A stretch of DNA of 64,000 nt, taken from contig PGZV01000005.1 of NCBI GenBank assembly GCA_002841495.1, forward strand, positions 1-64,000, read 5' to 3'. A model generated the notes under the pieces. It was not told the origin of the DNA. It ran no database searches and saw only the letters and a list, made by a program, of their open reading frames with translations. Source of the stretch: Firmicutes bacterium HGW-Firmicutes-2. Lineage in GTDB: Bacteria; Bacillota; Clostridia; Lachnospirales; Vallitaleaceae. This document shows, in pieces, positions 9,849 through 56,548 of this stretch (position 1 is the stretch's first letter; each line of letters starts with the position of its first letter). A program made the translations under genes and the position numbers.

Positions 9849-10314
9849 GATTGGAATTAAAATAGTGAAAAACAAATTTGAAAAGCTCATACACGATGAG
9901 CAGGGATATGTTTATGTTATTGTTGCTATTATAATTCTTCTAAGTGTCATTTATTGTGGTATCTCTTTGTATGAACCATTGGTCACAAGAGATAATGTGT
10001 TTCATGTTGCAAGCGTAATCGTTAATGAAATTCAAAGTGTTGGAGAGATAGACACGGAGATAGAAAATATGGTGGATGCGCTTTGTTTTGAGATGAATAT
10101 TAGTCCTAATATTTATTATGAAGGTAATTTTATTAACAGTACAAGAGGAACAAGGCTTATTCAGATTGGTGAACCCTTCTATGTGAATGTGGAATTAACG
10201 ATGCCAATAACATTGATGGATCCCATGTTCAGTAACCCTATTACTCATGATCTTGTCATAAAGAAAAGATTAAAAGGTGTTGGGCAAGTGTATTGGAGAC
10301 CGAGTGAAATGTAG
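9838..10314 (+). CDS. TadE-like pseudopilin 1
   Basis: This 158-residue protein has the leader LIHDEQG-YVYVIVAIIILLS, a clean prepilin-type processing site followed by one membrane helix, then an extracytoplasmic domain of about 120 residues. It begins at a TTG inside the end of the pilin gene, with AAGGTGAG upstream, so translation is coupled. TadE/TadF pseudopilins help start or regulate pilus assembly. Confidence 0.7.
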   Translation: MDSKIGIKIVKNKFEKLIHDEQGYVYVIVAIIILLSVIYCGISLYEPLVTRDNVFHVASVIVNEIQSVGEIDTEIENMVDALCFEMNISPNIYYEGNFINSTRGTRLIQIGEPFYVNVELTMPITLMDPMFSNPITHDLVIKKRLKGVGQVYWRPSEM

Positions 10315-10322
10315 GTGATAAA

Positions 10323-10802
10323 ATGGATGAAAAGAATGATGCGGGAACCTCAATACCTATGCTGTTTGGAGGCATTTTCCTATTTTTAGTGATCATTATG
10401 ATCATAATTGAAGTGCAGAATGTTTATGCAACACAAAGAAAAGTTAAAAAAGAATTACAAATAGCTGCGAATATTGCCATCGTTAAATCTATGGACGATG
10501 AATATAGAATAGATGGTGTATCGCAGATGGATGTAAGTATGATTGAATATGATTTTGAAGATTATTTGGTGGATGCACTAGACTTGTCGATGTCGACAAT
10601 GGAACATCGTAATGGCAACTATGAATATGCCGTTAATATTTTAAGTATTACGCCAACAGAAAACCCACCTAAACTGGAAGTAGGTGTGGTGGTATTCTTA
10701 AAGCCTATATTCTTGCAAGGATTATTGGAGGAGTATGTTGGGCCTAATATTAGATTTGAAATACCTATTGATATAGTAAGTAAAAACCAAAGATTGGACT
10801 AG
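10323..10802 (+). CDS. TadE/TadF-like pseudopilin 2
   Basis: This 159-residue protein has a short acidic leader ending NDAG, then a hydrophobic helix (IPMLFGGIFLFLVIIMIIIEV) and an outer domain with mixed strands. It is the second pseudopilin-like gene in the row, 8 bases after the first. The glycine before the helix fits prepilin peptidase cleavage. A unique function cannot be read from the sequence. Confidence 0.65.
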   Translation: MDEKNDAGTSIPMLFGGIFLFLVIIMIIIEVQNVYATQRKVKKELQIAANIAIVKSMDDEYRIDGVSQMDVSMIEYDFEDYLVDALDLSMSTMEHRNGNYEYAVNILSITPTENPPKLEVGVVVFLKPIFLQGLLEEYVGPNIRFEIPIDIVSKNQRLD

Positions 10803-10807
10803 ACATA

Positions 10808-11236
10808 ATGGTATTAATAAGATGGGGATTTATATTCATTGTTTCAGTTATGGCAACCGTTACGGACATTAAGTTTGGAAAAATTAGTAATAGATTAAGT
10901 GGCATCACCTTTATAATCAACTTAGTATTACTTATGGTAGATTATAATATAGAATATGTCATAGCTTTTGTAATAAGTCTAATTGCAAATATATTTTTAT
11001 TAGATGTGTTATATAAGGGTGGGGATGCGAAGATAATGATTAACATAGCCTTTGCAATTGGTTATAAGGCCCTATATGTATTTATATCGATGCTTATGAT
11101 ATTAATCATCATTTATGTCATTAAGATGATCATGAATTTTATCAAGAATAAGGCATTTAGAACGGCGGGTACAACCATATGTTGTCCGTCTATTCTTGGT
11201 GGTGTGATTTGTACATTTTGGATTTTTTATATTTGA
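10808..11236 (+). CDS. A24-family prepilin peptidase (TadV/CpaA type)
   Basis: This 142-residue polytopic membrane protein has both catalytic aspartate motifs of the A24 aspartic prepilin peptidases: TDIKFGKISN near residue 20 and GGDAK near residue 74. The short length, without the N-methylase domain, matches TadV/CpaA. It should cut the pilin and pseudopilins encoded just upstream. It is the last gene of the run; the next genes are on the other strand. Confidence 0.85.
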   Translation: MVLIRWGFIFIVSVMATVTDIKFGKISNRLSGITFIINLVLLMVDYNIEYVIAFVISLIANIFLLDVLYKGGDAKIMINIAFAIGYKALYVFISMLMILIIIYVIKMIMNFIKNKAFRTAGTTICCPSILGGVICTFWIFYI

Positions 11237-11248
11237 TACCTTAAGACT

Positions 11249-11503
11249 TCACCCACCGGCTGATAAGAACATCATCCTATAGGCATCCATTTGGATGTCT
11301 ATAATATTTTGGTCCCCTTCGAAGTATATCTCCGTCCTTGGCAGATGTATAATCCCATGTACTTGGTCATCTGAAGGTATGAGCTTGACATGCCAATGGT
11401 CGCCGTAATAATCATTTTCTGAGCAGGATGTCGAAACAGCATCAAAATAATCTTTTATGTAATGAAAGGGTATTCCACTTACAATTCGATTATTTGGTTT
11501 CAT
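11249..11503 (-). CDS. Small hypothetical protein coupled to an AraC regulator
   Basis: I do not recognise this 84-residue protein. It is soluble and rich in His, Asp and Tyr (YYGDHWHVKLIPSDDQVHG). Its start overlaps the stop of the AraC-type gene by 4 bases, so the two are translated together. The proximity to the tungstate genes makes a role in metal or cofactor sensing possible, but nothing in the sequence proves it. Confidence 0.55.
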   Translation of the reverse strand: MKPNNRIVSGIPFHYIKDYFDAVSTSCSENDYYGDHWHVKLIPSDDQVHGIIHLPRTEIYFEGDQNIIDIQMDAYRMMFLSAGG

Positions 11504-12351
11504 ATGAGATGATCCTGTTTGTATTTCATGGTGTATTGTTTAGGCGTCAGTCCGAGATGATGCTTAAAGAGTTTAATGAAATAGGAAATACTTTCAAAAC
11601 CAAGATCATAACTGACCTCGGATACGTTTTTGTGAAGCAACAATTCCTTTGCCTTATTGATTTTAAGTAAGTTGTGATAAGCTTTGGGTGTCAGCCCTGT
11701 TGCTTTCTTGAAAAGGGGTATCAAGTTAGAGGGGGACATGTTCAGTTCATAGGCTATCTCGTTCACCGTCATATCTGAACCTGAGAGATGGTCTTTGAGG
11801 CATTGAACCGCATACGCCACAGGCTCTTCTTTTTTTCGGGCACGAAGGGGCATCTTATAGTTTTTAATCAAGGTATAGACCATTTCCTGAGAAACCAGAT
11901 CAATGAGGAATTCTTTGTTCGGGTCCTGGCTCATACTGTAGGTGTTGATTCTTTCTATCTGTGACTTAATTTGAGCCATCAATTGATTGCGCACAACCGG
12001 TTTGTCAGCCGTTGTTACTTCATACTCGAATTGATGCTCAATGCGTTTAATCATATCATCCAATAGATTGTCGTTGATCTCATAGACAATGGCTTTGGTA
12101 TCTTCTTTCATTTCCATTTTGACGCTGGAATTTGGGGGCAATAAAATAAAATCAGAGGTGGAATAAGTGAACTCATTACCATCATTGATTTTAACATGTT
12201 TTGAACCTTCTACTATGGTACAAAGCCGTGTGTATTGGTAAGATTTATAAGTGGCTTTATAGTCTTTTGCAAGATCATAATATAGGATTTTGATGTACTC
12301 CGTTTCTATACCATCGTTCTTCTCAAAATAGCGATCAAAATTTTGAATCAT
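11500..12351 (-). CDS. AraC-family transcriptional regulator
   Basis: This 283-residue protein has an N-terminal cupin-like sensor domain (GSKHVKINDGNEFTYSTSDFILLPPNSSVKME) and a C-terminal double helix-turn-helix of the AraC/XylS type (VNEIAYELNMSPSNLIPLFKKATG and VSEVSYDLGFESISYFIKLFKHHLG). It is divergent from the tungstate operon, which is its most likely target. The promoter region between them holds an inverted repeat. TAGGAGG precedes the start. Confidence 0.88.
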   Translation of the reverse strand: MIQNFDRYFEKNDGIETEYIKILYYDLAKDYKATYKSYQYTRLCTIVEGSKHVKINDGNEFTYSTSDFILLPPNSSVKMEMKEDTKAIVYEINDNLLDDMIKRIEHQFEYEVTTADKPVVRNQLMAQIKSQIERINTYSMSQDPNKEFLIDLVSQEMVYTLIKNYKMPLRARKKEEPVAYAVQCLKDHLSGSDMTVNEIAYELNMSPSNLIPLFKKATGLTPKAYHNLLKINKAKELLLHKNVSEVSYDLGFESISYFIKLFKHHLGLTPKQYTMKYKQDHLI

Positions 12352-12434
12352 CCGTCGGCCTCCTAGGTCACAAAGCGTCTGCCTACTATCACCATAATAG
12401 CATAGCTACCCTATATTATCAACGGATGACGCTC

Positions 12435-12452
12435 CTGAGACAACTTTCTCAG
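12435..12452. promoter_or_regulatory. Inverted repeat between the AraC gene and tupA
   Basis: CTGAGA at 12435-12440 and TCTCAG at 12447-12452 form a 6-bp inverted repeat with a 6-base spacer, inside the 205-base divergent intergenic region. TATAAT-like sequence at about 12520 could be the -10 of the tup operon. The repeat may be an operator for the AraC protein, though it could also be chance. The rest of the intergenic stretch shows nothing more that I can support. Confidence 0.35.
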
Positions 12453-12556
12453 AAGATTTTTATAATTATGCGCTATTTTTTCTTAATAATCCGATAGTTT
12501 TTTGGACAGAATTACTATATAATTAAAATAAGATATGTTTAAACAGAGGGGATCGT

Positions 12557-13366
12557 ATGAATAGAAAAATCATTGGAATTATCATCCTATTGACTTTGAT
12601 TTTATCAGCGTGGGTTTTTGTGAATATGAATAAAGAACCAGAATTCATATTACTGTCAACAACAACAAGTACACAAGACAGTGGATTGTTGGATTATATT
12701 TTACCGGATTTTACGGCGCAAACCGGCATTGAAGTGAAAGTTGTGGCGGTTGGTACAGGAAAAGCCCTTCAAATGGGGCGTGATGGTGAGGCAGACGTCT
12801 TACTTGTCCATGCAAAATCCAGTGAAGTGGCGTTTGTAGAAGAGGGTCATGGTGTGGAGCGTTTTGATGTGATGTACAACGATTTTATACTGGTGGGACC
12901 ACAACCTCTTGAATACACGGGTATAGGTGAAACTCTAAAAGGCATTAAAAATTATGACGGGAAATTTGTCTCACGGGGTGACGATTCAGGCACCCATAAA
13001 AAAGAATTAAACCTATGGGCATCGGCAGGCATCGAGCCAGAAGGCGATTGGTACATATCAGCAGGAAAAGGTATGGGCGATGTACTCCAGATGGCCAATG
13101 AACTGCGTGCTTTTACCTTAACAGACCGAGCTACCTATCTTTCAATGAAAGATACATTAGAACTGGAGATTGTTTTTGAGGCCGACGCCCTTCTATTAAA
13201 TGAGTACGGTGTTGTTGCCGTGGATCCTTCTAAGAACAATGAGATTAACAACAGTGGTGCCAATGCCTTTATAGCGTGGCTTCTATCCTCTGATACACAA
13301 GAGATGATCGGTGAATTTGGTCATGACCTATATGGTCAAGCTTTATTTTTTCCGAATGCAAAATAA
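12557..13366 (+). CDS. tupA: Tungstate-binding ABC transporter lipoprotein-like receptor TupA
   Basis: This 269-residue extracytoplasmic receptor has an N-terminal membrane/signal segment and the TupA signature TTTSTQDSGLLDYILPDF followed by VKVVAVGTGKALQMGRDGEADVLLVHA, which lines the oxyanion site. The later SRGDDSGTHKKE segment is also typical. TupA binds tungstate with very high selectivity over molybdate in characterised members. It heads an operon with the permease and ATPase, consistent with the AOR enzyme encoded downstream. There is no Cys lipobox, so it may stay tethered by its N-terminal helix. Confidence 0.92.
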   Translation: MNRKIIGIIILLTLILSAWVFVNMNKEPEFILLSTTTSTQDSGLLDYILPDFTAQTGIEVKVVAVGTGKALQMGRDGEADVLLVHAKSSEVAFVEEGHGVERFDVMYNDFILVGPQPLEYTGIGETLKGIKNYDGKFVSRGDDSGTHKKELNLWASAGIEPEGDWYISAGKGMGDVLQMANELRAFTLTDRATYLSMKDTLELEIVFEADALLLNEYGVVAVDPSKNNEINNSGANAFIAWLLSSDTQEMIGEFGHDLYGQALFFPNAK

Positions 13367-19299: not shown

Positions 19300-19746
19300 A
19301 TGGGTGAAATTGTTGGAAAAGTACGTGCGATTAATATCAGCAAGGAAAAAGGTGTTATAAAAGAATCCATACCGGAAGGCATGTTTCAAGAGGACCATGG
19401 CCTTGTGGGAGATGCACACGCAGGTAAGTGGCACCGTCAAGTCAGTTTGCTGGCTCAAGAAAGCATTGATAAAATGACGAAGATAGGGATTGAAGGGCTT
19501 TGCAGTGGCAAATTTGCAGAAAACTTAACGACAGATGGTATTATACTTCATACATTGCCTGTAGGTACCAAAGTGAAAATAGGAGAATCCTTTCACGAAG
19601 TAACCCAAATCGGTAAAGAGTGTCACACCGGTTGTGCCATCAAAGCTCAAGTCGGTCAGTGCATTATGCCCAAAGAAGGTATATTTACAAGAGTCTTAAA
19701 AACAGGTAAAATAAGAGTAGGCGACCCAATCGAAATTATAGAATAA
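19300..19746 (+). CDS. MOSC-domain protein
   Basis: This 148-residue protein is a stand-alone MOSC (molybdenum cofactor sulfurase C-terminal) domain, as often encoded in clostridial Moco clusters. Typical segments are LVGDAHAGKWHRQVSLLAQES, GKFAENLTTDGI, and the cysteine-bearing IGKECHTGCAIKAQVGQCIMPKEGIF. The ATG at 19300 lies 6 bases after CAGGGGGA; the previous gene ends at 19297. MOSC domains bind the cofactor and can handle sulfur; the exact reaction here is not known. Confidence 0.9.
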   Translation: MGEIVGKVRAINISKEKGVIKESIPEGMFQEDHGLVGDAHAGKWHRQVSLLAQESIDKMTKIGIEGLCSGKFAENLTTDGIILHTLPVGTKVKIGESFHEVTQIGKECHTGCAIKAQVGQCIMPKEGIFTRVLKTGKIRVGDPIEIIE

Positions 19747-19754
19747 AAGAAGCC

Positions 19755-19892
19755 AAAATCCGAGTCAATGGTTCTAAAGCTATAGCCATGAACCATTGAC
19801 CAAAGGGTAGGACGGGAAACTGTACTGCCTCCCATTCTTGGAAAGGATTTGGAAATAAATGTAACGTTTATTTGCACTGGATTTTCGGTGCA
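19755..19892 (+). promoter_or_regulatory. Putative Moco/Tuco riboswitch in the AOR leader
   Basis: The leader between the MOSC gene and AOR is strongly structured. AAATCC (19756-19761) pairs with GGATTT (19845-19850); GTCAATGGTT (19764-19773) pairs perfectly with AACCATTGAC (19791-19800); AAATAAA/TTTATTT (19853-19873) and GCAC/GTGC (19874-19891) form later hairpins. The conserved-looking segment GGGAAAC then ACTGCCTCCC then GGAAAGGATT resembles the Moco riboswitch motif as I remember it. TGCCTCC at 19826-19832 is exactly complementary to the AOR Shine-Dalgarno GGAGGCA at 19906-19912, so translation could be blocked by alternative pairing. Confidence 0.68.
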
Positions 19893-48318: not shown

Positions 48319-49263
48319 TTATGAATTCTTTTTCCTTAGTACAGCACCGATGCCAGTTAGTGCAACACCGATTAGTGAGAATGCTTCAAGTGGAAGACCG
48401 CCGGTTTGGGGTAATTCTTCATCTTCAAGAATAGCTATAGGTAGTGCTTCAGCAATAGGCTCATCTAAGAATACTTCTTCGATAGGTTCATCTTCTATGA
48501 CGACAACTTCTTCCATCATTGGTTCAGGCAGAGCTTCTGCGATATCTTCGTCAGGAAGTTCGATTTCAGGTACTTCGACAACAGCGACTCTATTTCTTCT
48601 AGTGGTGGTTTCTATTTCATCATCAGTGTCTTCATCATCAGTGTCTTCATCATCAGTGTCTTCATCATCAGTGTCTTCATCATCAGTGTCTTCATCATCA
48701 TCAGTGTCTTCATCATCAGTGTCTTCATCATCAGTGTCTTCATCATCAGTATCTTCATCATCAGTGTCTTCATCATCAGTGTCTTCGTCATCAGTGTCTT
48801 CATCATCAGTGTCTTCGTCATCATTATCTTCATCATCAGATATTATTGCACCAACTTCTATTAAAATATTACTTATTGCAGGTATCTGATTTCCATTGTT
48901 TAATGGAGAAACTAAATTTTCATCATTTAGTATGCCATCATATTCATAATCATATTCATAAAGATGATAATTATTTCCACCTTTTATACTAATACTTATG
49001 ACATAATGTGTATCAGATTTCCACTCGAGGTATTCTTTTTCGTTACCATAAATACGATACTTAATACCCTCATAGCTATGCCAATTACCATTGCTATTGG
49101 GGCTGAAATTACCGTTTCCTGTATTACCGCTAATTTCAACAGGTTCAATACCTTCTTTTGAAATAGGATAATCATTCATTGCATTCACTGTTACGCTACT
49201 AGTTAACATCATTAAAAATACCAATATTAAACTCATTATTTTACGCCATCTTTGTTTTTTCAT
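48319..49263 (-). CDS. LPXTG-anchored surface protein with acidic repeats
   Basis: This 314-residue protein has an N-terminal signal peptide (KIMSLILVFLMMLTSSVTVNA), a domain of about 120 residues rich in Tyr, Asn and Gly, 14 five-residue units of DDEDT type, a Glu/Pro/Val-rich stretch and a sortase signal LPQTGG followed by a hydrophobic helix and RKKNS. It should be linked to the cell wall by a sortase. The start at 49263 follows AAGGAG. The 133-base leader of its mRNA and its SARP-like operator are described separately. The negative repeat could bind calcium or cations, which is an inference. Confidence 0.88.
   Translation of the reverse strand: MKKQRWRKIMSLILVFLMMLTSSVTVNAMNDYPISKEGIEPVEISGNTGNGNFSPNSNGNWHSYEGIKYRIYGNEKEYLEWKSDTHYVISISIKGGNNYHLYEYDYEYDGILNDENLVSPLNNGNQIPAISNILIEVGAIISDDEDNDDEDTDDEDTDDEDTDDEDTDDEDTDDEDTDDEDTDDEDTDDDEDTDDEDTDDEDTDDEDTDDEDTDDEIETTTRRNRVAVVEVPEIELPDEDIAEALPEPMMEEVVVIEDEPIEEVFLDEPIAEALPIAILEDEELPQTGGLPLEAFSLIGVALTGIGAVLRKKNS
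48617..48838 (-). repeat. 15-bp tandem repeats encoding DDEDT units
   Basis: The minus strand encodes 13 units of Asp-Asp-Glu-Asp-Thr plus one Asp-Asp-Glu-Asp-Asn unit; on the plus strand the unit is tcatcatcagtgtct-like. One unit carries an extra Asp codon. The near-identity of units at DNA level suggests recent expansion by slippage and length variation between strains. Confidence 0.92.
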
Positions 49264-49402
49264 AATAGATCGCTCCTTCTGAAAGTCGATGTCCATCTAC
49301 GGGACAGTTTATTTTCCAGCCTCGTTTTTTATTGGGACGTGGTTACCCTTATGTTTTACATTCTGTCACTATACTTATAGAAAATATCAATTGCATAGGA
49401 CT

Positions 49403-49458
49403 ATTATACCAAAAGGCTGTGACATAAGACGCACACCCTTGTGACATCCCTGTGACAT
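49403..49458 (-). promoter_or_regulatory. SARP-type operator and promoter of the LPXTG gene
   Basis: On the minus strand TGTCAC occurs three times (plus-strand GTGACA at 49452, 49441 and 49419), spaced 11 and 22 bases apart, i.e. one and two helical turns. The nearest copy ends 10 bases before TATAAT (49403-49408 on the plus strand), and no -35 hexamer is seen. Heptamer repeats with an 11-base period just before the -10 are the known layout of SARP binding sites. A SARP-like gene lies 500 bases away. Confidence 0.72.
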
Positions 49459-49555
49459 AAAAACCCTTACTATTAAAGGCTTCTCATAGAAAATCAGTTA
49501 TAATGCAATAGATGTTATGTTATAAAGACAACAAAGTGTATTTGTTGACAAAATA

Positions 49556-49595
49556 ATAAGAGGCTCAACCAGCACATCATGGTTGAACCTCTTAT
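49556..49595. terminator. Terminator after the 83-residue gene
   Basis: ATAAGAGG (49556-49563) pairs with CCTCTTAT (49588-49595) and inner TCAACCA/TGGTTGA extends it, with T-rich flanks on both sides. It separates the small gene at 49623 from the LPXTG promoter region. Besides this and the operator, the 49264-49622 stretch holds no other gene that I can support. Confidence 0.85.
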
Positions 49596-49622
49596 AAAAA
49601 AATTGAATTGAATAAAGCGAGA

Positions 49623-49871
49623 TTATGAAGCGCTAATATTTTTGGCCTGACCCCAGTCCCGCAAACATTGATCGTCTTCGGTATGTCTTGAGACAGCACT
49701 GCGTATAAGCGTTATCAGTTCAAGTTCACTTCTGAAATGAATCTTCTCTCCAGTGTCAAGCCACTGGATGACACCTTGGTAGCTATGATTTTCAGTGTGA
49801 AGTATCGTGACAAGAAAATTGGTGCCTTTTATAGGTTGGGTCTTAGATTCTTGAGATTGTTTGTTCATCAT
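49623..49871 (-). CDS. Small protein of the SARP-like neighbourhood
   Basis: This 82-residue protein contains GTNFLVTILHTENHSYQGVIQWLDTGEKIHFRSELELITLIRSA, a pattern I have seen in small clostridial proteins of unknown function. The ATG at 49871 lies 8 bases after AGGAGGT; the ATG at 49877 is also in frame. The gene is read in the same direction as the SARP-like gene and has its own operator-like promoter. Confidence 0.7.
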   Translation of the reverse strand: MMNKQSQESKTQPIKGTNFLVTILHTENHSYQGVIQWLDTGEKIHFRSELELITLIRSAVSRHTEDDQCLRDWGQAKNISAS

Positions 49872-49920
49872 ATTCATATACCTCCTAACAAGGATCACCA
49901 TAAAAGAGTAGGTGATATAT

Positions 49921-49953
49921 AGTATAGCAGATGCCCGTTACAACACCGTTACA
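49921..49953 (-). promoter_or_regulatory. SARP-type operator and promoter of the small gene
   Basis: On the minus strand TGTAAC occurs twice (plus-strand GTTACA at 49948-49953 and 49937-49942), 11 bases apart. The nearer copy ends exactly 10 bases before TATACT (AGTATA at 49921-49926). The hexamer TGTMAC and the spacing match the LPXTG gene operator. A further GTTACA at 49972-49977 overlaps the end of the regulator gene. Confidence 0.7.
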
Positions 49954-49972
49954 CCATAATTTATATTAACAG

Positions 49973-51205
49973 TTACAGTAATGGACTTAGGTTAAGGTTA
50001 GAGTCTGCTTTTATACTATCAATGTGATGGACCGATACAGAGGGTGCATGGACTTCTTGTTCAAGCACGCGTTTTAATACTTTTTCGGTAATAACCTTAT
50101 CAACTCCCGGTAATAGTATAACCATTTGTTGTTCATTCCATTGTGTGAATGTATCACCTTTTCTTAAATGGGTTATAAGCAATTCTTTTAATAATCGGAT
50201 ACGATGTTCCCGTTGGGCCAAAGTATCTTTGTTTGAGAAATTTAGCTTCAGAACGCCGATACTGAAGTCATTACCACTACGTTCACTTCGACGACGTTCG
50301 AGCTCATAGATCGATTTAAAGACATCCGGTTCGCAATAAAAGGCATTTTCGATAAGAATACTAGATTCCAGAACTTTGATAAGATCTTCTTCTGTGTAGA
50401 GGGATTGTTGCGTTTGTAGTAGCTTTTTATAAATGGCCTTCATTTCATCTGACGGCTTGATACCCATTTCACGATCATAGAACTCGGTTATGTACTCGTA
50501 ATGATTAAAAGCTTGACGTTGTTCGCCGATAGCAAGGAAGGCATCTATCAGATTAAGATGAAAGGATTCTTCGTAGATATCTATTTTTATAGCTTTTTGG
50601 CATAGTTTTATAATTGTGTCATAGTTATTTTGAGTTTTCAACAATTCAATAGCGCTGTAGATTGCTTTAACAAACAGTCTTCTATACTGATTACGGATGG
50701 GAAAAACCCAGTGTTGATCAGCGCACTCAGGTAAGTAATCTCCAAGATATAAGTCGATTGCTTTAAGATAAGCATCTAGTGCCAGTTCGGAATTGGAACT
50801 TTTTGATGAATCTCCCTCTAATAGAAGTGCTTCTAATAGGTCGGCATCTAATATAAGCTCGATTTGGACATTCCATTTGTAATAACCATTGGTATAAAGG
50901 ATTGTGGTTTCTTCGTCATTTTTGCCGTCTTCTTGAAGCGTTTGCCTAAGGCGATGCATTTGTCTACGCAGGGTGCTTCTAGGATCGTTGTATTCTTCAT
51001 AAATCCACAATTGGTCCATGAGCGCTTCCGGTGTAAAAGAGCGATCTCTATGGGTCAACATGAATTTGTAAAGCTCCCATATCTTTTTGGAGGTAGATGT
51101 GGACGTTATAAGCGAGTGACCATCTTTAATAACATCAAAATGCCCCAAAGTATAGACTGTAAAAATGTGATGTTGTTTATTTTTGGTTTGCTTTGATTTA
51201 GCCAT
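49973..51205 (-). CDS. SARP-like regulator (BTAD) with degenerate GGDEF domain
   Basis: This 410-residue regulator has an OmpR-type winged helix near the start (GHFDVIKDG..., SFTPEALMDQLWIYEEYNDPRSTLRRQMHRLRQTL), then a helical BTAD domain of TPR-like repeats (about residues 100-250), and a C-terminal domain of about 140 residues that aligns with GGDEF. In the last the active loop reads NEQQM instead of GGDEF, but RKGD (an RxxD motif) stands exactly five residues before it, where the c-di-GMP inhibitory site lies. It may therefore bind c-di-GMP. SARP regulators are known mainly from actinobacteria. The start at 51205 follows GTGAGG. Confidence 0.82.
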   Translation of the reverse strand: MAKSKQTKNKQHHIFTVYTLGHFDVIKDGHSLITSTSTSKKIWELYKFMLTHRDRSFTPEALMDQLWIYEEYNDPRSTLRRQMHRLRQTLQEDGKNDEETTILYTNGYYKWNVQIELILDADLLEALLLEGDSSKSSNSELALDAYLKAIDLYLGDYLPECADQHWVFPIRNQYRRLFVKAIYSAIELLKTQNNYDTIIKLCQKAIKIDIYEESFHLNLIDAFLAIGEQRQAFNHYEYITEFYDREMGIKPSDEMKAIYKKLLQTQQSLYTEEDLIKVLESSILIENAFYCEPDVFKSIYELERRRSERSGNDFSIGVLKLNFSNKDTLAQREHRIRLLKELLITHLRKGDTFTQWNEQQMVILLPGVDKVITEKVLKRVLEQEVHAPSVSVHHIDSIKADSNLNLSPLL

Positions 51206-51589
51206 AAAAGACCTCACAGAATTATTTGTTTCATAAAAAAGTTGCATAAATTAATAAATAAATTTTGCAACCGAACTGTCATAGCATTAGCCTTAGACTC
51301 AAGTTTTGCGACCCTAATTTTCAATAGGTGTGCCTATTATATTTAGATTGACCATAAAATGAAAGTCATAAGTATATACTATATTTTAACATTATATAAG
51401 GCATCTTACCATAAAAATATATGAATATTCTAGGTTGCTGTGAAATCATAACTGTGCAAATATGAATGTATCAAATATAAATGTAGAATAATCATAGAAT
51501 TAATGATAGAATTTCACGGAGGGGATTGTTCATCAGTTCCAAATAGAGAGACCAAGAGGTCTAAAATACACGGAGGTAACCAACTATTT
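51206..51589. other. Intergenic region between the regulator and the chemoreceptor
   Basis: This AT-rich stretch of about 380 bases holds the divergent promoters of the regulator and the chemoreceptor. I see no TGTMAC direct repeat here and no clear hairpin or gene, so the regulator does not obviously control itself by the same sites. GGAGG occurs at 51520 and 51572. Confidence 0.6.
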
Positions 51590-54786: not shown

Positions 54787-54910
54787 AAACATTTTGGCAG
54801 CATAAAATAGTTCCATAGACCCATGGAATATGTCAAAGGACTAAAATGTGTGGTATAATAGAAGGATACTAAAGTTCATGAGTTTGCCCTTGTTAGTAGA
54901 GGTGATGGAA

Positions 54911-56548
54911 ATGAAAGAAAAAATAGACTTTGATCAATTTAGACGTTTAATCTCTTCAATACTCTACCAAGATGAATCGGATGATACGATTTTGTCGAAT
55001 TTGGCAGGGCAAGCACTTGTGTTTGAAAGTATGGAAAGTATTGTACTTGATTTGTGGAAAATCAGAGAAGCGATGTTGAAGATGAGTGATGGAAATATAT
55101 CTTTTGAGATTGTTGGTGCAGGCCCGATTTTTGATGCCATCAAACAACTTCAGACAAAATTACAATACTTAAATACACAGATGGAGGCACTTTCAGAAGG
55201 CGATTTTTCCCAAGATACGGACTATTTTGGAGAGTTTTCAAGTGCCTTTTTGCTTATGAAAGAAAGACTTTTTGAAGATATGGAAGCTCTAGAACGGGCT
55301 CGACTTATGGAACAAGAGTTAAAACGTCACTTTAAAACAATTTTTCATATGATACCGGAACCTACAGTCATTTCAACATTAGAAGATTTTCGCATATTAG
55401 ATTTTAACAATGCCTATTTAAGTACCAGCGGATACTCGGTAGAAGATATGGAAGCGCTAAATGAAGAAAGTATCCACATCTACACCAACGATTCTGAAAA
55501 AAGAGATATTATAAAGACAATGTTGCATGAACAAGGTTATTGTGAAAACATTGAAGTTAAATTCAAAACAAAAAATGGTAGACTTCGGGTTGGGTTGGTG
55601 TCCGCCAGACTATATATGGTGGAAGACATTATGATGGTGGTTCATGTTATTCGGGACATAACTTTACTTAAAGCCTATGAAAGATCAATTAAAGACAGAG
55701 AGACACAGCTAGAACTCATATTCGAAAACTCCCCTATTGGTATCATTCAGTATAACGCGGAAGGGATGATTCTTAACATCAATCAGTATTTTTGCAATCT
55801 CATTGGTGCAATGAGAGAACAGATATTAAATCTCAATATGTTGTTGCTTCCTAACGAAAATCTAGCACAAGTGATTGAAAAATCCTTAACAGGTAATACG
55901 GCTTTTTATGAAGACTTATATAAATCAACCATAACAGGTAAGGAAGTGTATGTACGTGCTACTTTTGCTCCGGTGTTTGATGACTCAGGCCTTATGACGG
56001 GCGGTATCGGTATTGTTGAAGATTATACCGAGAAAAAAGAAATGGAAGAAGAAATCAGAAGATTATCGGTTATAGATAAGTTAACTCAACTCTATAACCG
56101 TCTAAAAATTGATGAAGTATTGGAAATGGAACTAGAGAGGTCTCAGAGAACACAATGGCCATTTGGCGTTATATTACTTGACATTGACCATTTCAAGCAC
56201 GTTAATGATAACTTCGGGCATCAAATTGGTGATAAAACCCTTTATGACTTGTCGAGATTAATGGAGAATAGTGTAAGAGAAATCGATATCTTAGGCCGAT
56301 GGGGTGGCGAAGAATTTATAGTCATTGCGCCAAAGACAGATATTCAAGGTACTTGTGTCTTAGCGGAAAAATTAAGGAAGAAAATAGAAGCATATAATTT
56401 TGACAAGATTGATGGCTTAACATGTAGTTTTGGTGTAGCTATATGGCAAGGGGATGAAGATCCTGCTACTGTTATTTCAAGAGTTGACAAAGCACTGTAT
56501 AAGGCGAAAGCAGAAGGCCGTAATCGGATTGCAAAAGTATTAAAATAA
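54911..56548 (+). CDS. PAS-PAS-GGDEF diguanylate cyclase
   Basis: This 545-residue protein has an N-terminal region with a HAMP-like EGDFSQDTDYFGEF, two PAS domains (about residues 150-275 and 280-400) and a GGDEF domain with LLDIDHFKHVNDNFGHQIGD and GRWGGEEF. REID lies five residues before GGEEF as inhibitory site. It should make c-di-GMP and be product-inhibited. No membrane helix is present. The ATG at 54911 follows AGAGGTG; a further ATG at 54905 is in frame. Confidence 0.92.
   Translation: MKEKIDFDQFRRLISSILYQDESDDTILSNLAGQALVFESMESIVLDLWKIREAMLKMSDGNISFEIVGAGPIFDAIKQLQTKLQYLNTQMEALSEGDFSQDTDYFGEFSSAFLLMKERLFEDMEALERARLMEQELKRHFKTIFHMIPEPTVISTLEDFRILDFNNAYLSTSGYSVEDMEALNEESIHIYTNDSEKRDIIKTMLHEQGYCENIEVKFKTKNGRLRVGLVSARLYMVEDIMMVVHVIRDITLLKAYERSIKDRETQLELIFENSPIGIIQYNAEGMILNINQYFCNLIGAMREQILNLNMLLLPNENLAQVIEKSLTGNTAFYEDLYKSTITGKEVYVRATFAPVFDDSGLMTGGIGIVEDYTEKKEMEEEIRRLSVIDKLTQLYNRLKIDEVLEMELERSQRTQWPFGVILLDIDHFKHVNDNFGHQIGDKTLYDLSRLMENSVREIDILGRWGGEEFIVIAPKTDIQGTCVLAEKLRKKIEAYNFDKIDGLTCSFGVAIWQGDEDPATVISRVDKALYKAKAEGRNRIAKVLK

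Follow-up and report, generated by a model that had tools for sequence, protein, structure and literature searches.

We identified, in a 64,000-nucleotide window of the Firmicutes bacterium HGW-Firmicutes-2 genome, a regulator gene, a small-protein gene and a gene for an LPXTG cell-wall protein that are likely to form a single regulatory circuit. In this circuit, an activator resembling the Streptomyces antibiotic regulatory proteins (SARPs), itself gated by cyclic di-GMP (c-di-GMP), would control cell-wall proteins in Petrocella-like Clostridia. On the sequence evidence, control of the system by c-di-GMP is strongly supported, acting chiefly via a riboswitch on the regulator mRNA and, in relatives, via riboswitches on surface-gene mRNAs. 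The novelty lies in the combination of parts. Read from 51344 down to 48319 on the minus strand, the locus is arranged in the following order:

51263..51344, minus strand: c-di-GMP-I riboswitch aptamer in the regulator mRNA leader (Rfam RF01051, 61.2 bits versus a gathering cut-off of 35)
51235..51271, minus strand: intrinsic terminator/expression platform, a hairpin followed by six T, its 5' arm GTTGC overlapping the aptamer 3' end
49973..51205, minus strand: SARP-like regulator, with winged helix, BTAD and degenerate GGDEF domains (from Pfam, alignment and predicted fold)
49937..49953, minus strand: putative promoter A operator (array A), two TGTAAC repeats with an 11-bp period, 10 bp to the -10 TATACT (49921-49926)
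49623..49868, minus strand: small-protein gene A, of an unannotated family with a predicted beta-beta-beta-alpha fold
49419..49457, minus strand: putative promoter B operator (array B), TGTCAC, TGTCAC, TGTGCG, TGTCAC with an 11-bp period, 10 bp to the -10 TATAAT (49403-49408)
49289..49352, minus strand: leader RNA without Rfam match, a divergent copy (R1 29.1 bits, E 0.011; R2 27.7 bits, E 0.0012)
48319..49263, minus strand: LPXTG cell-wall protein with acidic repeats (LPQTG sorting signal; TIGR01167, 21 bits versus a cut-off of 15.9)

The window genome (G000) was compared with three members of its genus (G001, G002 and G003) and with G004 and G006 of the same family; loci L069, L068 and L071 repeat G001, G002 and G006, respectively, and L073 and L075 repeat G004. 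In total, 25 regulator loci were found, of which 22 were scanned for riboswitches, L090-L092 (distant partial BTAD matches from other phyla) being left out.

The regulator joins a SARP-like activator to a degenerate GGDEF domain

The regulator open reading frame (49973-51205, minus strand) is intact. The initial annotation had described it as an OmpR-type winged helix joined to a BTAD and a GGDEF-like domain, and this composition was borne out. Pfam recovers the first two domains in the window protein (BTAD at residues 119-263, E 2.6e-15; Trans_reg_C at residues 38-108, E 2e-8) and in the aligned regulators (BTAD in 20/20, Trans_reg_C in 19/20). The third is indicated by predicted fold and by relatives: the window protein matches the GGDEF family under the cut-off (E 0.072), and seven of the 20 aligned sequences match at E≤0.01. 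The alignment comprises the window protein and 19 others, 25-93% identical to it; L087-L089 (partial) and L090-L092 were excluded.

A structure model was computed from the window protein and 19 relatives (mean predicted local distance difference test score, pLDDT, of 79.8). Residues 13-267 of the model match AfsR (8k60_I: Z 19.4, root-mean-square deviation (rmsd) 3.6 over 242 residues), and the N-terminal part also matches EmbR (2fez, Z 17.8). Residues 289-403 match GGDEF domains, namely 6eib_C and the c-di-GMP complex 3ign (Z 13.4, rmsd 2.4) as well as PleD with c-di-GMP (2wb4_B: Z 13.3, rmsd 1.9), and a profile search with the C-terminal domain alone reached DgcR (6zxm) at E 8.3e-8. By its winged helix and BTAD architecture and its AfsR-type predicted fold, the regulator is SARP-like. 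We prefer this name to SARP in the narrow sense, i.e. an antibiotic activator of Streptomyces and its kin, because the genomes here are clostridial and the neighbouring genes encode surface and small proteins.

In the C-terminal domain, NEQQM stands in for GGDEF, and RKGD lies exactly five residues ahead of it, as had been pointed out in the initial annotation. The residues of the putative inhibitory site (I-site), R348 and D351 of the RxxD motif and R379, 31 residues on from the first, are invariant in 20/20 regulators, and make up three of the only seven columns invariant across the domain. The same spacing is seen in the I-sites of PleD and DgcR (PDB 2wb4, 6zxm), where RxxD precedes the active site (A-site) by five residues and the first I-site arginine is followed by another 31 residues on; in PleD we take the counterparts to be R359, D362 and R390, and in DgcR the arginine at the R379-equivalent position is seen in the profile-search alignment. 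The present protein differs from both in having lost the A-site and in joining the domain to a DNA-binding activator. The former A-site loop instead reads W-N-x-x-Q in most sequences (N357 in 16/20, Q360 in 18/20). With the predicted fold of a GGDEF domain, a lost active motif and retained I-site residues, this is a degenerate GGDEF domain, and the invariant I-site residues together with the fold make binding of c-di-GMP plausible.

There is about an even chance that c-di-GMP acts via RNA only and that the degenerate GGDEF domain binds no ligand, serving in structure or dimerisation. The riboswitch by itself suffices to explain control, many GGDEF domains keep parts of their I-site residues, and the old A-site has a conserved pattern of its own; set against this are the share of I-site residues among the invariant columns and the presence of c-di-GMP-bound GGDEF domains among the structures closest to the model.

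A c-di-GMP riboswitch overlaps a terminator ahead of the regulator

The RF01051 match at 51263-51344 lies just upstream of the regulator ATG (51205), which has a GAGGT ribosome site. A hand-typed piece of the aptamer consensus, which was ill chosen, has no match in the window, though the covariance model does. In all four genus members searched, a c-di-GMP-I riboswitch occupies the same place, scoring 63.0 bits in G001, 64.6 in G003 and 54.8 in G002. The last aptamer strand, GTTGC, doubles as the 5' arm of the terminator, and both this strand and the terminator are conserved in 4/4 leaders. Aptamer and terminator are thus mutually exclusive, and the expression platform is coupled to the aptamer, as judged from sequence and folding. 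When the leaders are folded without ligand, the terminator state lies below the aptamer-enforced fold, in which the four closing pairs of the aptamer are imposed, by 7.9 (G000), 6.6 (G003), 9.2 (G001) and 5.0 (G002) kcal/mol, such that a tight ligand could flip the fold towards read-through. Binding of c-di-GMP should therefore favour read-through of the regulator leader, i.e. the riboswitch should be an ON switch. An OFF switch, by which c-di-GMP would lower regulator and surface protein, is unlikely: class I switches of C. difficile are generally OFF (PMC6200980), but the terminator 5' arm sits inside the aptamer in 4/4 leaders, pointing to mutual exclusion (a separate antiterminator was not searched for exhaustively).

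These results also bear on the earlier proposal that c-di-GMP binding by the protein tunes expression of the surface protein. Control by c-di-GMP is upheld by the riboswitch on the regulator mRNA; the best-supported route, however, is an RNA that the initial annotation had not seen.

The whole window genome contains nine c-di-GMP-I matches. The eight besides the regulator's are located in six stretches (two being tandem pairs), five of which precede genes with a signal-peptide-like start, one having an LPNTAG-type end, while the sixth leads into a methyl-accepting-type gene (all by eye).

Direct repeats at the putative target promoters have the SARP layout

Both promoters carry TGTMAC repeats with an 11-base period ending 10 bases before the -10, exactly as first described. 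Promoter B reads TGTCAC-N5-TGTCAC-N5-TGTGCG-N5-TGTCAC-N10-TATAAT (49457 down to 49403) and promoter A reads TGTAAC-N5-TGTAAC-N10-TATACT (49953 down to 49921). These are the only two TGTMAC pairs in the window and both are exact; shuffled sequences, with one mismatch allowed, hold 0.95 on average and 26/100 reach two. Genome-wide, the exact form TGTMAC-N5-TGTMAC is found three times in 3.52 Mb, at promoter A, promoter B and C18:3754, a count which alone is unremarkable given the ~1.7 expected from uniform base counts. All three, nonetheless, precede like genes: the LPXTG gene and two paralogous small-protein genes. Pairs with up to one mismatch number 42 versus 47 in the reversed control and, hence, information can be drawn from exact pairs and arrays only. 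A four-unit array whose third unit is TGTGCG occurs at site B, at the C18 site, in G003 and also in G004 of another genus (L073), and G003 and G001 have a further array ahead of a surface gene, in a position matching C18 (by eye).

We then consider 19 hand-picked promoter regions, for which a stricter -10 scan replaced an uninformative loose scan of the -10 spacer. A scripted -10 lies exactly 10 bp after the last unit in 15 of the 19; the four scripted misses have, by eye, a poorer -10 at 10 bp (L074, L078 and L082) or one at 9 bp (L077). The period of 11 is seen in 10/18 regions, versus 0-1 for each of the periods 7-10 and 12-16, and first-order random sequences give a mean of 0.035 and a maximum of 2/18. 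Exact pairs follow the regulator in nine of the 22 loci (L068, L069, L070, L072, L073, L074, L076, L077 and L078, that of L078 sitting beyond an intervening opposite-strand gene) and weaker arrays in L079, L080, L082 and L083. L071, L075 and L087-L089 have no exact pair, the exact-pair search being the only one applied there. Conservation ahead of matching genes in relatives, the lack of which the initial annotation had named as one of its refuting conditions, was thus observed in several genera.

SARP promoters have repeats spaced by 11 or 22 bp, and 8 bp separate the 3' repeat from the -10 (PMC10936776). A 6-bp core followed by 2 bp and 8 bp yields 10, so that the N10 spacing here agrees with this rule. 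As far as layout goes, the target promoters have the 11-bp direct repeats and -10 spacing of SARP targets. Taken with the domain architecture, the predicted fold and the conservation of the repeats ahead of matching genes in relatives, SARP-like activation via direct repeats appears well supported. It is very improbable that the repeats instead serve as Pho boxes or as binding sites for a different OmpR-family regulator, the adjoining SARP-like gene being incidental. Their sequence and period do resemble PhoB boxes, TGTCA-type repeats with an 11-bp period are bound by PhoB/PhoP, and the winged helix of the regulator itself matches the PhoB family (far under the cut-off, 24.7 versus 296.2 bits). 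We rank this reading low, however, since the two pst loci of the genome have no repeat pair within one mismatch in the upstream stretches fetched, and, in addition, the exact pair is confined to three target promoters in the genome and the array tracks the regulator gene across genera.

In L072, another exact TGTCAC pair (13146, minus strand) is located 10 bp ahead of a TATAAT, upstream of a gene for a large membrane protein (10299-13067, YfhO-like by eye), which is possibly an extra target of the regulator.

Putative target genes: the LPXTG protein and a family of small proteins

The C18 locus of the window genome contains a second small gene (C18:3872-4081; 51% identical to the first) followed by a second LPXTG acidic-repeat protein. 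In G001 and G003 a second small gene is kept between array B and the LPXTG gene. It is missing in the window lineage (49264-49457, minus strand), so that the LPXTG gene would there come directly under array B. A 15-bp tandem repeat present in 14.7 copies (48616-48839) encodes the acidic DEDTD repeats of the window LPXTG protein. In G002 (L059 11244-15021), the opposite strand after small gene A encodes, by eye, a HAD-like phosphatase and components resembling a sugar ABC transporter, in place of the LPXTG locus.

The small proteins form a family of 70-90 residues with the pattern F..V....QG.IQW.DTG..HFRS.LE, found in 55/392 Lachnospirales genomes (E≤1e-5). Their predicted fold consists of three strands and a helix (pLDDT 73.9). 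No credible Pfam or NCBIfam match was obtained among 17 members (best E 0.028 and 0.037, one member each), nor was a credible PDB relative found, a missing structural match proving nothing. In 25 small-gene loci inspected by eye, neighbours include BTAD-type regulators (L100, L101, L111 and L122), and large secreted proteins adjoin others (L098, L099, L115, L117 and L119); 20 of the 25 were scanned against Rfam, with no match at gathering. Our guess is that the small protein assists either the regulator or the output of surface protein as an accessory factor.

c-di-GMP riboswitches recur at the surface genes of relatives

At least one c-di-GMP-I or -II riboswitch is present in 10 of the 22 loci. 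In six of these (L074, L076, L077, L078, L079 and L082), a c-di-GMP-I/-II aptamer is located in the interval separating the small gene from the gene that follows. The latter encodes a secreted protein with an LPXTG-type end in L076 and L077, with MucBP, thioester or SpaA domains in L076 and L082 and a transglutaminase-like domain in L079; in L074, L078 and L082 it is cut by the locus end before an anchor could show. An aptamer also precedes a camelysin-like gene in L080 and a gene alike by eye in L083. Whole-genome searches of 13 genomes returned 75 c-di-GMP-I matches in ~33.1 Mb, and their loci (154 kb) contain 12, versus ~0.35 expected. In L074, L076 and L078, the aptamer end TGCC faces GGCA beside the ribosome site (by eye), an arrangement which suggests ON control at the level of translation. 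An HD_5 (HD-GYP-type) gene is located upstream of the regulator in 4/4 loci tested (L070, L074, L076 and L078).

In L070, L072, L076 and L077, the surface or small gene has GtrA-like and family 2 glycosyltransferase genes downstream (by Pfam in L076, by eye in the rest), and in L078 a YfhO gene. Given the glycosyltransferase neighbours, glycosylation of the surface protein is possible.

Model of the circuit and comparison with known systems

In the model that we propose, the leader would form the terminator when c-di-GMP is absent, and no regulator would be made. c-di-GMP would stabilise the aptamer, which holds the terminator 5' arm, leading to read-through into the regulator gene. The regulator would then bind the tandemly arranged TGTMAC repeats, which are spaced by a helical turn and of which the last adjoins the spacer to the -10, and recruit RNA polymerase in an AfsR-like manner. 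Its targets would be small gene A, the window LPXTG gene and the paralogous C18 small-gene and LPXTG locus. The retired GGDEF domain could possibly bind c-di-GMP at its I-site and tune activity or dimerisation. In relatives, the riboswitch in the surface-protein leader, behind a regulator-controlled promoter, would act as an AND gate.

Several observations weigh against this model. The ON polarity is modelled from folding without ligand. No c-di-GMP riboswitch is present in the loci fetched around the regulators of same-family G004 and G006, which makes the regulator's riboswitch a trait of the genus. L081, L084, L085 and L086 have no repeat array in the 330 bp after the regulator, and OmpR/PhoB-type regulators likewise use 11-bp direct repeats. 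The enrichment in riboswitches includes copies that stand in tandem or next to one another, in loci with many surface genes, and these are not independent events. Finally, the HD_5 neighbour is inconstant, other genes occupying its place in L072, L077, L079, L080, L082, L083 and the window.

We put forward, tentatively, that one messenger might be read twice: the riboswitch would permit synthesis of the activator, and binding at the I-site would then set its activity. If so, the circuit would work as a coherent feed-forward switch, which could screen out short pulses of c-di-GMP ahead of the costly production of a surface protein, and the regulator would be, to our knowledge, the first SARP-type activator known to be ruled by c-di-GMP. 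SARP activators, c-di-GMP riboswitches and sortase-anchored surface proteins, usually the subjects of separate studies, come together in this system, which offers a testable case of a second messenger acting on one regulator at the RNA, and perhaps also at the protein level. The same parts rewired across genera, with the riboswitch on the regulator in one genus and on the target elsewhere, amount to a natural experiment in regulatory evolution. Likely operators are also provided, together with a first setting for the small-protein family and the leader RNA.

BldD of Streptomyces represses sporulation genes, is dimerised by a c-di-GMP tetramer and has domains unrelated to those of the regulator described here. 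The shared feature is that of a transcription factor under c-di-GMP control (PMC4151990). AfsR and other Streptomyces SARPs share the winged helix and BTAD fold (Z 19.4) as well as direct repeats of 11-bp spacing shortly before the -10 (PMC10936776), but AfsR has a C-terminal NOD-TPR in place of a degenerate GGDEF, and the SARP targets are antibiotic genes as opposed to the surface-protein genes of Clostridia. EmbR of Mycobacterium has the same N-terminal fold (2fez, Z 17.8) joined to an FHA domain (PMC10936776) instead of a GGDEF-like one. In C. difficile, c-di-GMP riboswitches similarly control sortase-dependent adhesins, and transcription regulators occur in riboswitch-controlled operons; however, the adhesins are switched directly by class II aptamers and, of regulators, two response regulators and SigD are mentioned (PMC6200980, in the text of which the terms BTAD and SARP are absent). 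No description of the present system was found in the open-licence PubMed Central literature, as represented by titles and the start of abstracts, and a word search of PMC6647913, on Petrocella, returned none of c-di-GMP, diguanylate, biofilm, adhesion or LPXTG.

A candidate regulatory RNA and other features

In the window genus and in G004, a conserved leader element is located between the small and surface genes, a place occupied by c-di-GMP aptamers in other relatives. It has no Rfam match and is a candidate for a new class of regulatory RNA. Its pattern is GGTTAACC...GAGGCTGAAAA with a covarying loop-to-tail pseudoknot, ahead of secreted-protein genes. Copies include:

window, 49289-49352, minus strand: leader RNA
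L056, 4093-4171: leader RNA
L170, 591-740, 8481-8693 and 14554-14761: leader RNA
L171, 3761-3974 and 10027-10109: leader RNA

An improved model of this RNA matches 14/392 Lachnospirales genomes, eight of which were sources of training sequences and six others (G033, G083, G135, G236, G252 and G355). In G060, it occurs in tandem before secreted-protein genes, 4/5 of which encode 520 to 2436 residues. The pseudoknot pairs fully in 12/12 G060 copies, the arms being placed by fixed rules fitted to the same copies. When arms are exchanged between the seven short-form copies, the paired fraction is 0.52 and 2/42 swaps pair fully; the five long-form copies are too alike for this comparison to be informative (0.88, 7/14). 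The first ten copies (nine distinct) gave a weak pair count, the structure slid by +3 columns covarying more (0.165 versus 0.147), and support for the pseudoknot comes from the later tandem copies. The six other genomes give eight matches, two of which show the pseudoknot (L176 and L180) and one part of it (L182); it is not seen in the remaining five. The leader RNA lies just downstream of a c-di-GMP-I aptamer in G005 and G011, by eye in G015, and perhaps in G355. The LPXTG leader was also considered as a diverged c-di-GMP riboswitch, and this was rejected, as no c-di-GMP family matched at E≤5 in five leaders.

Elsewhere in the window, a PAS-GGDEF diguanylate cyclase with an intact GGEEF is encoded at 54848-56545 (plus strand), the third gene beyond the regulator, in a neighbourhood that is the same in G001 and G003, and a molybdenum cofactor riboswitch (RF01055, 79 bits) is located at 19746-19864 (plus strand).

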